A stretch of DNA of 64,000 bases, taken from contig NW_026516213.1 in assembly GCF_025602895.1 (NCBI RefSeq), positions 310,001 through 374,000 of the forward strand, given 5' to 3'. Below are positions 1 through 40,757 of the stretch, piece by piece (the first letter of the stretch is position 1; the number at the start of each line of letters is the position of its first letter). The notes beneath the pieces were generated by a model. It saw only the letters and a program-made list of their open reading frames with translations. It was not told the origin of the DNA and made no database searches. The DNA is from Polychytrium aggregatum (taxonomy: Eukaryota; Chytridiomycota; Chytridiomycetes; Polychytriales). The translations under genes were made by a program, and so were the position numbers.

Positions 1-227
1 GAATCCCAGCTGCCGGACAGTGTGGAATCGCGACGTCAATGCGGCGCGCAACATGATCGCAGTGTGCAGGTCGATTGTAGAGATCGGAGAGCGACCAGCG
101 GTCTTCACTCGGAGGCTGCCAAAGTGATCTGTTTTATTTCTTGTGGCTTTGCTAGACGCAAGCACAGCACATACTACATGTTCATGGAAACGGCTATATT
201 GTCCCGTTTTTTTCTGAATAAAGTGTA
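1..227 (+). mobile_element. Right end of a mariner-Fanzor element (copy 1, cut by window start)
   Basis: This is the 3' end of a Fanzor-carrying transposon that enters the window from the left. The first 227 bases match the reverse complement of 20007-20233 with only a handful of substitutions. That covers the end of the Fanzor reading frame, the roughly 100-bp non-coding tail, and the terminal repeat whose core reads TGTCCCGTTTTTTT and which finishes with TGTA at 224-227. Beyond the TA at 226-227 the two copies share nothing, so the element boundary is placed there, consistent with the TA target duplication of Tc1/mariner elements. The near identity implies recent movement or gene conversion. 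The rest of the element lies outside the window. Confidence 0.85.
2..127 (+). pseudogene. C-terminal fragment of Fanzor nuclease (copy 1)
   Basis: Reading from base 2 gives the last 41 residues of a Fanzor protein ending at a TGA at 125-127. It begins NPSCRTVWNRDVNAARNM, which holds the last zinc-ribbon cysteine and the RuvC-III motif (R-D-x-N-A-A). The aspartate codon is GAC at 32-34. The full-length copy at 20107-22479 has GAA (Glu) at the same place, so this copy keeps the canonical residue. Whether the upstream part of the gene is intact cannot be seen, because it lies left of the window. It is labelled pseudogene only because it is partial here. Confidence 0.8.
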
Positions 228-19498: not shown

Positions 19499-20006
19499 GC
19501 TGTGGATGCTGCTGGTTCTGTCGGTACTGGTGATGCTGGTTCTGTCGATGCTGGTGCTGCGACCGAGACAGGGTATGCTCGATCTGGGACGATTGGGGGG
19601 GGCAGCGGGATCTTGCTTCTGCCTCTGCCTCTGCCTCTGCTTGAGCTCTCGCTTTCCTCCGTTGCGGACGGACAGCCAAGGGCGATGCTCCCGTCGCTCG
19701 GACCGCTCACCACCGTCGCTTTTGTACCTTCTGGGCGATGGTGGATTGCCCCATGGCACCAGGATCGCCACCTCGACCGTGGTTGGGCGCATGTCCCCAA
19801 AAAGGCAACACGCTCCTGGGGGGCAAGGCTCTGTGTCCGTCGCGGCCGCGTCTGTGTCCATCTTGGCCGCTGGCTGCGTGGTGGGTCGGTACACCCACGT
19901 CCTGTGCAAGTCCACCGAATTTCCTTGGCTTTGCCAAGCCCGGGTCCTATCGGGTTGTGTGGGGGGGGGAAGTAGATGCAGTCTACATCCAGCAGCACAT
20001 CGCCAT
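19499..20006. other. Upstream region of the CLC gene, simple repeats
   Basis: This should be promoter and 5' UTR of the CLC gene. It holds imperfect repeats: GCTGGTTCTGTCGNTACTGGTGATG-like copies at about 19510-19560 and (CTGCCT)n near 19618-19640. The 300-aa minus frame running through here is an extension of CLC exon 1 and has low complexity; I do not call it. Confidence 0.45.
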
Positions 20007-20034
20007 TACACTTTATTCAGAAAAAAACGGGACA
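20007..20034. repeat. Left terminal inverted repeat of the mariner-Fanzor element
   Basis: Reads TACACTTTATTCAG followed by seven A and CGGGACA. The inner 13 bases are identical to the other end in inverted orientation, and the outer part shares TACA and several scattered positions. Confidence 0.85.
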
Positions 20035-20106
20035 ATATAGCCGTTTCCATGAACATGTAGTATGTGCTGTGCTTGCGTCAAGCAAAGCCACAAGAAATAA
20101 AACAGA
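20007..20106 (-). ncRNA. Candidate guide-RNA (fRNA/omegaRNA) region of Fanzor
   Basis: In Fanzor and TnpB systems the guide RNA scaffold is transcribed from the 3' end of the nuclease gene to the transposon end, and the guide is the flanking host DNA. Here the corresponding strip is the 100 bases between the Fanzor stop (20107-20109) and the TA border. It is almost unchanged in copy 1 (128-227) although it encodes no protein. It can fold a small stem-loop at 20070-20084 (TGCTTG, loop, CAAGCA). In this model the guide of this copy would come from the flank below 20007, and that of copy 1 from 228 onward. Position is inferred from the known family layout; no transcript evidence is available. 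Confidence 0.45.
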
Positions 20107-22479
20107 TCACTTTGGCAGCCTCCGAGTGAAGACCGCTGGTCGCTCTCCGATCTCCACAATCGACCTGCATACTGTGATCATGTTGCGCGCCGCATTGACT
20201 TCGCGATTCCACACTGTCCGGCAGCTGGGATTCTTGCAGCTCCTGACAAAGTGGGAATTCGCAACACTGGGCGCATCGAGTCCTTCCAACCGAACTGGCT
20301 CCAGGCACTTGGAGCACACTTGCGAGGTGTTGAACTCGTTCGTCGAGGCCACCTTGACGCTTCCATAATGGTGATTGGGACGGCGGCGGTGGTGCTCGAA
20401 TTGCTCAAAGTACTGAGCAAACCGCTGCCTCCGAGGGCTGGATGCATAGCCCTTGCCCTGTCGCCATGATGCATTGCCAAAGGCGATCACCACATCGGTC
20501 CGTATCGGGGCGTGCTTCAGGACGGCCTTGCACATCCTGTCAACGGCCACTTGGCGCCTCTTGTGGCCCGTGAAGCGATGGTGACGGGCCTTCTTGCCAA
20601 GGCGGAAGCCGAGCTGCACTCGCAGCTCCGGTCGCAGGACATGGGTGAGATGGATCTTGAAGGCCTCCGAGGACGACACCTTGGGCGAGGGAGTGGTCGA
20701 CATCCAGGTCTCGATGCTGAGTCGATACTTCATGGTGTTGTGCCACTTGGTGTTGGACGTATGGCCACACATGTGCTGGTAGTGGCCATTGGAGAATGAG
20801 ACCACCTCGTCTTGGTGGCCCGGTGCTTGGATGACTGCCGTGAAGATGGAGCCGACTCCAGGATCGATGCCAATCCAAGTGGTGCGGTTGGGGTCTGGGT
20901 CGCCGATGTGGGCCTGGATACGCTGCTCGGCAGCCGGAGGAGGCTCGATGGTCTCGGTGCGATCGGTTCGACGCACAAACTTGACGAGGCCGATGGTGCA
21001 TCCAATGCCATCGGTGCTGATCTCGTAGTTGAACAGCTTCTTGTCCCTGACCCGCTCTTGGAAGAGGGAACTACGCAGCTTGAAGCAACTGCGCCAGAGA
21101 CGATCCTGGTTGTTGATGCCGTCATCACCTTCTTCCTTGAGCTTGTCCCGGGTGAGTCCAAGGCGCTTCTTTGGACCAAGGAGATCCCAGAGGGTGGCCG
21201 TGTCGATCTTGATGTATTTGGCCGTGGCAGTGCATAGAGGAACCATCGTGCACACGGCCGGAGGAGTGTCGACGGCGAGCTGCTTGAGTGCCCAGTTGAT
21301 CCTGGCGGCCAGCTTGTTGATCTTGGACTTGGTGGTGCCGAGCTCAGACTTGGCGTTGGTGAACCTCTTGTCGTCGGAGGGAATGCCTTGGGTAGTGAGC
21401 TCGTCCAGCTTGGCCTGGCGCTGCAGCTCGGTGACTCGGAGGGCGGGCATGTCACAGTCGATCCACTTGTGGACATCGTCGACCATCTTGTCTCGGGCGA
21501 GGATTCCCACATGGTGTGAGAGGCGATGGAGGGCCCGGAAGCGGTCCTGGTCGTTGTTGTACCGAAACTCGTCCAGGACGTGGCCAAAGTCTGGATAGAG
21601 GAACTCGAGATCGGCCTTGGGTGGAGTCGGCCCTGGTTTCTCGAAGAGCTCAAGACAGGCCTCGATGGCTTCATGCTTATGCTTGTTGGCTGGGAAGACG
21701 GCAGCGCAGAAGCGGCGAAGGAGTCGCCAGTAGGCCAGGTCGAGGTGGGTGGTGCAGTTGGTGGCATAGGCATTGACAGCCAGTGTGAGAAGCTGACTGT
21801 GAGCACCATCAGGCAGACGAGGGGCCGGAGGCAGGTCTGCGTGCCGAGTGGTCTGGTAGTCGCCAAAGGAATCAACCAACTGCTCGTTGTATTTCTCATT
21901 GTCCCCGGTCGGGGAGAGCGCATCGGCCTGGACGATCCTGAAGCATTGGCGGATGAAAGCAGGGGTGGCCTTGGAGATGACGGGGACGGGAAGATCCTGC
22001 TCGATGCACCGGAGGATGTGCAGGTTGAGCAGCCTGGATGCCTCGAACTGGATCTGGGTCATGGCCTCGACGGTGGCCTGGATCTTGTCGCGGAGAGCGG
22101 GATTGAGACAACAGCCATCCATCGTCTGCTTGAAGCAGCTGAACTGAGGGGCGGATGACCTTCCATCCACGAGTGGGACGACAGAACTCTTGAGGGGCCG
22201 GTATTTGGGACACTTGTTGGTGTTGCTTCGCTCGTGATCGGTACCGTCGCACTGGCGACATCGCTTGCCAGTACTCGAGGAAGTAGATGGACCAGGTTCG
22301 GTGGGATCGACATCCATTGGATCTGCAGAAGCAGTGGTGGTGAGCGACGGAGCAACAGACGACCAAGCATGCGTGGGGTCAGAAGACGAACCAGAGACAG
22401 GCTCCGACTGTGACTTGGCTTTCTTGGGCCTGGGTGGCCGAGGCTGGCCATCACCGGCACCCTTACGCTTCGGAGGCAT
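20107..22479 (-). CDS. Fanzor RNA-guided DNA endonuclease (TnpB homologue), 790 aa
   Basis: Eukaryotic relative of TnpB/Cas12, expected to use a guide RNA to cut DNA. One uninterrupted frame starts at the ATG of MPPKRKGAGDG. Order: nuclear-localisation-like basic N-terminus (PKRK, PRPKKAK); Zn-knuckle-like CRQCDGTDHERSNTNKCP, common in fungal Fanzors; a long helical wedge/REC region; RuvC-I with WIGIDPGVGS (Asp539). RuvC-II follows as VVIAFGNASW, where the canonical Glu is absent. The alternative Glu, displaced by about 47 residues, is Glu715 in TNEFNTSQVC. The zinc ribbon is Cys722, 725, 748 and 753. RuvC-III is WNREVNAARN with Glu760 where the other copies have Asp. The frame is full-length and free of stops, so it was recently under selection or recently copied, but the D760E change may weaken cleavage. 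It shares strand and element with a mariner transposase. Confidence 0.92.
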   Translation of the reverse strand: MPPKRKGAGDGQPRPPRPKKAKSQSEPVSGSSSDPTHAWSSVAPSLTTTASADPMDVDPTEPGPSTSSSTGKRCRQCDGTDHERSNTNKCPKYRPLKSSVVPLVDGRSSAPQFSCFKQTMDGCCLNPALRDKIQATVEAMTQIQFEASRLLNLHILRCIEQDLPVPVISKATPAFIRQCFRIVQADALSPTGDNEKYNEQLVDSFGDYQTTRHADLPPAPRLPDGAHSQLLTLAVNAYATNCTTHLDLAYWRLLRRFCAAVFPANKHKHEAIEACLELFEKPGPTPPKADLEFLYPDFGHVLDEFRYNNDQDRFRALHRLSHHVGILARDKMVDDVHKWIDCDMPALRVTELQRQAKLDELTTQGIPSDDKRFTNAKSELGTTKSKINKLAARINWALKQLAVDTPPAVCTMVPLCTATAKYIKIDTATLWDLLGPKKRLGLTRDKLKEEGDDGINNQDRLWRSCFKLRSSLFQERVRDKKLFNYEISTDGIGCTIGLVKFVRRTDRTETIEPPPAAEQRIQAHIGDPDPNRTTWIGIDPGVGSIFTAVIQAPGHQDEVVSFSNGHYQHMCGHTSNTKWHNTMKYRLSIETWMSTTPSPKVSSSEAFKIHLTHVLRPELRVQLGFRLGKKARHHRFTGHKRRQVAVDRMCKAVLKHAPIRTDVVIAFGNASWRQGKGYASSPRRQRFAQYFEQFEHHRRRPNHHYGSVKVASTNEFNTSQVCSKCLEPVRLEGLDAPSVANSHFVRSCKNPSCRTVWNREVNAARNMITVCRSIVEIGERPAVFTRRLPK

Positions 22480-22724
22480 GGGGGCAGAGGATGCTGGATG
22501 CCTGCCAGTGGTACTGGTCAGAGCAGAGACTTTTTTTTATCGTACAATAGCGCGATGATCAGATCAAGGCGAGATGAGGGAAGAAAGCAGCAGGACGAAG
22601 GTGTGGCATTTATACCCGAGAGCAGGAACCCGTCTTTGCGGGTTGGTTGGGAAGCGACCCTGTTCAAAAATCGCCGAGAGGTTCAAGCCAGGGATGTGAA
22701 CGTGAGAACGGCGGCTTGATTGGA

Positions 22725-22763
22725 GGGAACTCAACCCCAAATCGGTGGGGACTCAACCCCAAA
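22725..22763. repeat. Direct repeat between transposase and Fanzor frames
   Basis: ACTCAACCCCAAA occurs twice (22729-22741 and 22751-22763), 22 bases apart, around the stop of the truncated transposase frame (22753-22755). It may mark the junction where internal mariner sequence was lost. Confidence 0.7.
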
Positions 22764-23403
22764 GAAGTTCTCGATGGGATTGAAGTCGAGTGAGGCAGGT
22801 GGGGTGAAGATCACTGACCATCCTCGGCGCTCGATGCAGCACACCAGAGTGGTTGATGGCAAATGCAGCCGAGACAGACTTGTGCTTCATGTGATTGCGC
22901 TGGCGAAGCGGAGCACCCTTCGGTGAGTATCCGTAAAGAGGGAAAATGGATCTCCTGATCCCTGTCTCATCGACAAAAACGAGTCGTCGTGGGTCGATGG
23001 AGTGGACTTGGTCCCTGAACTGTGCCACTCGCTCATCCAGTCGCTTGGACTTGTAGAGGTGTGTTGCCCTCTTGTGTGAGAGACCTGCTCGGTGGATGGC
23101 AGTGTGGCAGAGTGAGAGTGATACTTTCCTCTGGAGGATGGACTCGAGCTTGCACCGCAGCACAGGACCAGTCTGGAACGGGTCCTGTTCAATCAGGGTG
23201 CGAATGACTGGACATGCCTGCTCGAAGAAAGTGGATCTGCGAGCTGGGACCCGGGATGGGTCATCCAGCTTGCATCCTCGGTGCCATCGATGGATGGTGC
23301 TCTTGGATACACTGAATATGGAGGCGACCTTACGCAGGCTATGGATGAGGGCGTAGCATCGCAATGCGGCGGTGCGAAAGTCGGATGTGTGGCGAATGGT
23401 CAT
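22753..23403 (-). pseudogene. Tc1/mariner (IS630-type) DDE transposase, internally deleted
   Basis: The frame starts at ATG 23403 (MTIRHTSDFRTAALR), the block also conserved in copies 2-4, and shows an N-terminal helix-turn-helix (RKVASIFSVSKSTIHRWHRG). A second helical unit follows, then the first catalytic motif VFVDETG and the usual YGYSPKGAPLRQ. After SAAFAINHSGVLHR the frame becomes unrelated. A typical C-terminal motif (LDFNPIENFFG, equivalent to SPDLNPIE) is visible nearby in another frame. So the stretch with the second aspartate is deleted and the third motif is out of frame. The protein cannot be an active DDE transposase, and movement would need help in trans. Confidence 0.85.
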
Positions 23404-23461
23404 GGCCAGCGCGCGATAACATTGGGTAACAAAATATTCGATCAATGGTCAAAAACCCGGG

Positions 23462-23489
23462 TGTCCCGTTTTTTATTGGATTGCCTGTA
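23462..23489. repeat. Right terminal inverted repeat of the mariner-Fanzor element
   Basis: On the plus strand it reads TGTCCCGTTTTTTATTGG then ATTGCCTGTA. In reverse it starts TACAGGCAATCCAATAAAAA and ends CGGGACA, the inverse of the left end. The same outer pattern (TACAG, then CCAA at positions 11-14) recurs in copies 2 and 4. Confidence 0.85.
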
Positions 23490-23667
23490 ATCATTCAAAT
23501 CACAGCGCACCGCCTCCCGCCAGCAGCCAGCCCAATCACGGCCCGCGTCCAGCGCCATGATCGGCCAGCATCATCAAGCACCCCTGCAGAATCCTCCGCA
23601 TCGCCGTCTTTGTCTCGGTAACAGCGTCTCAGGGTATTTGCGCTCTTCCTCTCGCCGACCACCAACC

Positions 23668-40345: not shown

Positions 40346-40757
40346 TGCAGCGATTCCAAAATGAAATGGGACACCCCGTTTTTAACCAGGACTGTGTTTT
40401 TGTTCTGGAACCTGAATACACTCACCCGCTCATCGGATTCATGGCCAAGCACAGCACCATATTGATATCGAGAAACCCCACTTTGTCCGGAGCTGTGCAA
40501 GCTGCCATACGTTGCGGGATCGAGACATCAATGCCTCAAGGAACATGATCTCGGTATGCCAGTCGATCATCGCCACAGGAGATCGGCCGGGTGTATTCAA
40601 GACCATGCTTCCCAAACCAACCAAAACCACTCGATCGCCAACCAAGACGGGAAACAATCTCACGGCTTGCTCACTGGGGCCTACAGTCAGTCAGCGGGGT
40701 TCAGACATCTGAAGCCGGAAAGTGACTGTCCCGTTTTTTTTTTCTGGATAGACTGTC
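40346..40757 (+). mobile_element. MITE-like mariner-Fanzor deletion derivative (copy 4)
   Basis: About 412 bases with both ends recognisable. The left end starts TGCAGCGATTCCAAAATGAA then ATGGGACACC, aligning over 30 bases with copy 2. The right end is TGTCCCG plus a T run, then CTGGATAGACTGTC, aligning with the left end of the main copy except for extra T residues. The TA borders have mutated (TG and TC). Inside is the block preceding the mariner start, then a jump to the last part of the Fanzor frame and its 3' tail. Such short derivatives with intact ends are how non-autonomous families arise. It lies just upstream of the proline-repeat gene. Confidence 0.8.
40458..40712 (+). pseudogene. 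Fanzor C-terminal fragment, zinc ribbon and RuvC-III (copy 4)
   Basis: Translation gives HIDIEKPHFVRSCASCH, then LRDRDINASRNMISV, then a tail up to the TAA-type stop at 40710-40712. The second zinc Cys pair and the RuvC-III aspartate (in RDRDINAS) are kept; everything before is deleted. The C-terminal tail is longer than in the main copy (extra KPTKTTRSPTKTG segment), as expected for another subfamily. With copy 1, it is the second copy that keeps Asp where the full-length copy has Glu. Confidence 0.8.

Follow-up and report, generated by a model that had tools for sequence, protein, structure and literature searches.

What does an RNA-guided nuclease do for the transposon that carries it? The question is raised by an element in the stretch of Polychytrium aggregatum DNA analysed here (the window; 64,000 nucleotides, C13:310001-374000, in a genome of 64,678,306 bases in 418 contigs), where a first-pass annotation had placed a Fanzor nuclease inside a Tc1/mariner element. 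The element appears to belong to a high-copy Tc1-type (DD34E) transposon family carrying a Fanzor1 RNA-guided nuclease, for which guided cleavage is predicted. As the best explanation of the whole, which we consider probable with moderate confidence, this Tc1 (DD34E) family with Fanzor1 would return, guided by its right end, to the sites it has vacated, and these would be refilled by repair. The sequence features that suggest this are the borders, the gene content, the size of the family, the constraint on both genes, a TTA found on one side of the insertions only, and a right-end segment kept in short derivatives.

The window element (Table 1) is bordered by TA at 20007-20008 and 23488-23489, its low-coordinate end being the right end only in the orientation of Fanzor. 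The matching terminal repeats with TA borders that had been annotated were found in part: the TA borders and the family ends are present, but the inverted repeats are imperfect (77% complementarity over 30 nt, 20005-20034 against 23462-23491) and differ in their outer bases. The second copy annotated as ending at the same border does so, window positions 1-227 (+ strand) being the right end of C13:306746-310227. The window copy was compared with 29 others (30 loci, L009-L038), picked as the best Fanzor matches, a choice that favours intact Fanzor genes. At 26 of the 30, the element runs from TA to TA between unrelated flanks; the exceptions are L021 (left end not found), L025 (left end changed), and L028 and L030 (right end without the last A). 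The insertion at L031 sits in a repeat family, and its joined flanks match 38 places. All five uninterrupted sites of this kind that were fetched have one TA and no element, the homology on the right side extending only ~25 nt beyond the TA; instead of placing the borders elsewhere, they confirm the TA border of this sister copy.

The family is large. With up to 3 mismatches, the 28-mer of the left end has 396 matches in the genome and that of the right end 276. The reversed-pattern controls gave 0, so the family ends are not due to chance, and further copies with the same ends, which the first-pass annotation had proposed to look for, exist in the genome. Pairing 100 exact left ends with 100 exact right ends, among those listed, yielded at least 51 elements, which fall into length classes of ~3743 bp (full), 3598-3666 bp, 3471-3501 bp (including the window copy), 1114 bp and 283-385 bp, with a few others. 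In full copies, a 310-amino-acid transposase is followed by Fanzor, and 100 nt separate the latter from the element end. Among the 30 loci, a Fanzor open reading frame (ORF) of at least 790 amino acids is found at 26 (25 of 790 amino acids and one, L035, of 833), the 310-amino-acid transposase at 5 and both genes intact at 4. Protein searches gave at least 57 matches for Fanzor (scored from 1260 candidates) and at least 153 for the transposase (from 150 of 814 candidates); the numerous Fanzor copies are 93-95% identical in protein to the Fanzor sequence P0001.

With regard to the transposase, the assignment to the Tc1 type of Tc1/mariner is based on the TA target duplication, the terminal repeats and the DD34E signature, the last of which is present in intact relatives (5 of the 30 loci) and not in the window copy. 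An intact 310-amino-acid relative matches DDE_3 at E 5.7e-22, and 34 residues, counted in the translation, separate its second and third acidic residues. In the window copy, the DDE_3 and HTH_23 matches are below their cut-offs. The mariner-type remnant annotated on the same strand as Fanzor is there, but a remnant is typical only of such deletion classes, complete relatives having all 310 amino acids. The window copy is non-autonomous, and it is defective because its transposase has lost the second D and the E and the third RuvC residue of its Fanzor is altered.

The identification of the second protein as Fanzor1 is supported by several lines of sequence evidence, each weak but all in agreement. 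The annotated 790-amino-acid frame is present (20107-22479, - strand), and its C-terminal RuvC/TNB zinc-ribbon region matches the Pfam TNB domain PF07282 with 32.1 bits (cut-off 26.3). The Fanzor1 motif D-X(125,275)-[TS][TS]-C4-RD, as given in PMC3627910, can be followed through D539, a TS 179 positions on and the C4. Its last residues are RD in the 29 other sampled copies (NRDVNAARN) and RE in the window copy (NREVNAARN), which misses this residue. IGIDPG and NEFNTSQVC supply the DPG and, ahead of the TNB region, the alternative E, with E715 being taken as the catalytic E from published descriptions, not from a structure. A C-terminal profile built with three divergent relatives that this genome also encodes matches nine PDB sequences (E 0.017-0.78), named TranC (2), TnpB-like, SpuFz1, Cas12m (2), Cas12f, Cas14a.1 and 'Transposase' (1); in its alignment to SpuFz1 (8gkh, weak at E 0.023), a W-x-RD stretch and an RP-VF tail are common to both. 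The window Fanzor is distant from a Fanzor2-like protein also encoded by this genome (BLASTP E 0.003), and six peptide patterns of P0001 found no viral match in IMG/VR. The annotated Fanzor in a Tc1/mariner element is supported by the TNB score, the order of the Fanzor motif, the weak SpuFz1-like tail and the DDE_3 match and DD34E of complete relatives.

The further claim of a distinct Fanzor system holds for the family but less so for the window copy, given its truncated transposase and altered catalytic residue. Whether the latter encodes a working nuclease is doubtful, since the E at the third RuvC position has likely abolished activity. This loss is not certain, because GtFz1, described with N at this position, is active, and the substitution D606N raised the activity of SpuFz1 (PMC11423790).

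Both genes are under a similar degree of constraint. For Fanzor, the nonsynonymous/synonymous ratio is 0.29 in the 30 copies, a sample biased to intact Fanzor, and 0.40 for the C-terminus in 12 copies picked by their right end (59 nonsynonymous versus 46 synonymous, p 9e-6), three of which (L102, L104, L105) are short derivatives contributing 21-37 codons each. For the transposase, it is 0.20 in 29 Fanzor-picked copies and 0.23 in 9 of 20 copies picked by their left end, the other 11 having been dropped with fewer than 60 aligned codons and L081 and L087 being one site on two contigs. We do not claim preservation of Fanzor alongside decay of the transposase, because the 30 loci are the best Fanzor matches and the end-picked copies show constraint on both genes.

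The insertion sites are asymmetric. T precedes the TA at 57 of 61 unique left junctions (exceptions: L017, L024, L030 and L104). This count excludes the left ends that are not preserved as far as the TA (L025, L044, L045, L053). A matching bias is absent from the right junctions, where A follows the TA in 11 of 52; the background frequency of T before TA is 14% (2810 TA sites, both strands of the window). Among the exact left ends listed, 98 of 100 have the T, duplicated contigs included, and six in the whole genome are without it. In the alignment of L031 to its uninterrupted sites, this T belongs to the target. In Spizellomyces punctatus, Spu-1 has a conserved CA in front of its left repeat, and this CA forms, together with the TA, the measured target-adjacent motif (TAM) CATA, according to PMC10432273. 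Because bases conserved at this position belong to a measured TAM there, TTA is, by analogy, predicted to be the TAM of the window family.

The same asymmetry would also arise in an ordinary Tc1 element if the transposase itself preferred T-TA in one orientation and Fanzor were a passenger without a role in site retention. The two ends can be told apart by the outer bases of their repeats, the T is also present at short derivatives that have no Fanzor gene and at L071/L072, at which a right end was not seen, and both genes are similarly constrained, all of which would suit such a transposase. However, a fixed base on one side alone is unexpected for a symmetric insertion into TA, and conservation is higher in the right repeat than in the left one. 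In S. punctatus, moreover, the corresponding bases are part of a TAM reported as measured (PMC10432273). We therefore regard a preference of the transposase as a rather unlikely cause.

The right end could provide the guide. Short derivatives were resolved at 19 loci representing 15 sites, in forms of 283, 312, ~384 and 1114 bp, and all 19 retain at least ~99 bp of the left end and at least the last ~168 bp of the right end. Ten of them were picked for both exact 28-bp ends, so that their repeats, though not the rest of the 168 bp, are present by choice; eight come from a set of 20 loci picked by the left end alone, and one from another comparison. That set also includes eight long loci whose right end lies beyond the fetched stretch, one with the right end of a divergent family (L080), one interrupted by a long insertion, with its right flank ~32 kb on (L070), and the pair L071/L072. 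Diversity in 29 copies is 0.077 at fourfold sites, 0.046 in the spacer between transposase and Fanzor, 0.033 in the 72 nt of noncoding sequence that precede the right repeat and 0.005 in the right repeat, versus 0.036 in the left repeat; the right end is thus more constrained than fourfold sites. A guide RNA encoded at the 20007 end, as annotated, is consistent with this constraint and with the retention of the segment in short forms, and we consider it putative. The 52 right flanks show no clear base preference. An AATAAA lies within the right repeat of the window family (20007-20034, Fanzor sense); as a signal setting guide length it was rejected, because the related right ends examined in families B, C and D lack it. 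Recurrent internal deletion at the same microhomology was likewise not adopted as the origin of the shared short forms: breakpoints inspected by eye lack long microhomology, and recurrence is still conceivable.

Several regions of the genome are present on two contigs. Matches to IFT46, which support the annotated flagellated host, were observed at two places, each on two contigs (C27, C113 and C405, with C113 in both pairs). At 16 element sites, 13 recognized from match coordinates and 3 from sequence, both flanks occur on two contigs. Both are occupied in each case, and the element lengths differ at 12 of the 16: in bp, L010 3500/3390, L011 3502/3638, L013 3740/3637, L014 3633/312, L015 3739/1114, L018 3738/3629, L019 3743/3743, L023 3717/3744, L027 3501/3739, L032 3740/~32 kb, L034 3608/3737, L059 283/312 and L065 385/385 and, from sequence, L063/L064 383/384 (a difference of one base, with 8 mismatches), while L062/L075 and L069/L086 are identical. 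The flanks have no mismatches between contigs at L014 (0/360) and L063 (0/300), and over 500-bp flanks partner and self have equal scores at three of five sites (L014, L023, L027), the partner scoring slightly lower at L013 and 96% at L018. The common element ends contain 12 mismatches in 313 positions for L014/L084, 4 in 333 for L027, 6 in 335 for L034, 1 in 333 for L013, 1 in 336 for L018, 0 in 336 for L015 and 0 in 263 for L059. Most same-site pairs are more divergent in their contents than in their surroundings, the differences being confined to the interior in some cases.

Empty alleles were sought with 22 joined-flank queries, and none spanning the junction was found among the matches listed (best 10 of 10, 40 of 66 and 40 of 125 candidates; the third set comprised 9 sites, L066 not among them). 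A further search with 28 joins (best 40 of 695 candidates) is informative only for L031, whose repeat accounted for 38 matches, and for L033, which accounted for 2 and has a right flank similar to its own left end. The count excludes partner contigs at which a single flank was seen (L037: C346, C81 and C334; L038: C417; L016: C358), and no second contig was among the matches listed for L009, L035, L036, L060, L068 and L029. Comparison of the left side only gave 1 gap column in 720 for L071/L072, 6 mismatches in 720 for L081/L087, and 10 mismatches with 249 gap columns in 740 for L033/L079; L043 and L067 have a common left flank.

The differences between such pairs could have arisen without Fanzor, by excision followed by template-switching gap repair or by ectopic gene conversion. 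Both are established processes, and two pairs that differ in length are identical in the ends compared (L059/C382 in both, L015/C93 in the right 336 bp). This origin falls just short of an even chance in our estimation, given that none of the 22 joins had a junction-spanning allele among the matches listed and that L063/L064, L027/C257 and L034/C8 differ within ~35 bp of an end. The differences could also be assembly errors among near-identical repeats, as the number and the 93-95% protein identity of the copies and the identity of some pairs (L062/L075, L069/L086) might suggest. An assembly in 418 contigs, some above 1 Mb, nevertheless suggests long reads spanning 3.7 kb, and flanks scoring as self include those of L014, where the contents differ by kilobases, which makes such errors improbable.

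In the mechanism that we favour, the transposase would excise the element, and a transcript from the right end, running into the flank, would act as a guide for Fanzor. The nuclease would recognize TTA and the downstream flank and cut the rejoined, vacated site. Repair from another chromosome or another copy would then refill the site and sometimes alter its interior. Re-cutting by Fanzor would explain the one-sided TTA, the retention of the right end and the exchange of contents at the same site, which transposase preference, gap repair and assembly error could explain too. A stronger version, in which Fanzor fixes the addresses of the family by re-cutting every vacated or empty allele, so that sites are filled on both chromosomes while repair swaps full-length, deleted and miniature forms, is possible but doubtful.

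Several observations weigh against this guided return to vacated sites. The single-sequence fold of the right end has a z of -1.0. A consensus of six right ends (four of the window family and one each of families C and D) shows both-sided change in 1 of 36 pairs, with a covariation term of +3.41, and Rfam gave no match for 19900-23600 up to E 1. The annotated guide RNA is thus unsupported by folding, covariation and Rfam, and a conserved hairpin is not claimed. Right-end diversity is not significantly lower than that of the transposase-Fanzor spacer (0.14 of resamplings). Of the profile searches suggested in the first-pass annotation, that with PF07282 was above its cut-off but NCBIfam guided_TnpB reached 20.4 bits against a cut-off of 100, and phmmer with the single P0001 sequence gave no match in PDB. 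The transposase could itself orient on TTA, since the terminal repeats differ. At L071/L072, one site on two contigs, a 204-bp left end has T before its TA, and a right end was not seen in the following ~530 bp; this may be a derivative without a right end. Finally, contents could be rewritten after ordinary excision.

The one-sided TTA and the same-site exchange of contents were not found reported for a Fanzor element in the open-access literature searched. The insertion sites hint at the use of Fanzor to its carrier elements. A genome with hundreds of ends, complete elements, miniatures and sites on two contigs makes the idea of retention or homing testable by counting, the countable features being the TAM as deduced at insertion sites, alleles that are empty and the exchange of occupants.

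Related elements were also observed. In the window, element-like fragments (72-88% similar) lie at 2302-2529, 2756-2789 and 40477-40567. As the right flanks of L033, L026 and L063 show, some copies adjoin, or almost adjoin, a terminal repeat belonging to another related element. A divergent Fanzor family (L106-L110) has an intact DRD and 57-59% identity to P0001 in the C-terminus; three of these loci (L107, L108 and L110) terminate in a related right repeat. Two further element families (D, C) have related right ends at L017:4136-4484 and L063:1-152, and the former stretch has the look of a complete miniature element, its left TA being preceded by T. At L002 (C124:404004-407198), a 477-amino-acid ORF combines a Fanzor2/TnpB-like protein (PF07282 66.5 bits, OrfB_IS605 35.3 bits) with a MerR-like stretch (17.1 bits, below cut-off); it also contains a stretch that we take to resemble the start of a serine recombinase. 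Matches of the L002 type on C124 and C379 are inverted pairs ~5 kb apart.

Table 1. Features of the window element and of the neighbouring copy (window coordinates)
Feature	Position	Strand	Remarks
Whole element, Tc1/mariner-type, truncated transposase and Fanzor1	20007..23489	-	3483 bp from TA to TA; ends, borders, 29 other copies
Left (5') terminal repeat including TA	23462..23489	-	396 genome matches (at most 3 mismatches), control 0
Right (3') terminal repeat including TA	20007..20034	-	276 genome matches (at most 3 mismatches), control 0
TTA at left border, predicted TAM	23488..23490	-	T before TA in 57/61 unique sites
Transposase ORF, truncated	22753..23403	-	ATG at 23403; retains the N-terminal part and the first catalytic D (DETG), lacks the second D and the E
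Fanzor1 ORF, 790 amino acids	20107..22479	-	D539, E715, C4 zinc ribbon, third residue E760
Codon of third RuvC residue	20200..20202	-	E here; D in 29/29 other sampled copies
Right-end segment of 168 nt, retained by the resolved short derivatives; putative guide-RNA scaffold	20007..20174	-	
Flank adjoining right end, predicted guide	19987..20006	-	Position by analogy with SpuFz1 (PMC10432273)
Neighbouring copy, right end	1..227	+	Part of C13:306746-310227, 3482 bp

Fanzor1 in Tc1/mariner elements has been known since 2013 (PMC3627910), and the family described here adds a member to that kind. One of its closest counterparts is SPu-1/SpuFz1 of S. punctatus, as described by Bao and Jurka 2013 (PMC3627910) and Saito 2023 (PMC10432273). 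Common to both are Fanzor1, the TA target duplication, terminal repeats of ~30 bp, a short stretch of noncoding right end downstream of the stop codon and conserved bases before the left repeat; the short forms of the window family also resemble the ghost loci of S. punctatus, which are described as keeping the right end. In contrast to Spu-1, for which Saito reports that no transposase was found (PMC10432273), complete copies here have a transposase between the same repeats. The window Fanzor has 790 amino acids and a predicted TAM of TTA, whereas SpuFz1 has 638 amino acids and the TAM CATA. PGv-1 and PUl-1 (PMC3627910) likewise combine a mariner-type transposase and Fanzor1 in one element. 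PGv-1 is, however, described there as single-copy and as also encoding an endonuclease, whereas the window family has hundreds of ends and no third gene was noticed. GtFz1 (Xu 2024, PMC11423790) resembles the window copy in that its third catalytic residue is not D, and its TAM, TTAA, begins with TTA; it has N and is reported to be active, whereas the window copy has E, found in 1 of the 30 sampled copies. Among prokaryotic systems, TnpB of IS200/IS605 is reported from experiments to act in plasmids as a gene drive for insertion sequences (PMC11870625). Although it works with another transposase, it resembles the window family in its proposed role, the cutting of sites without the element, which Fanzor may also perform here.

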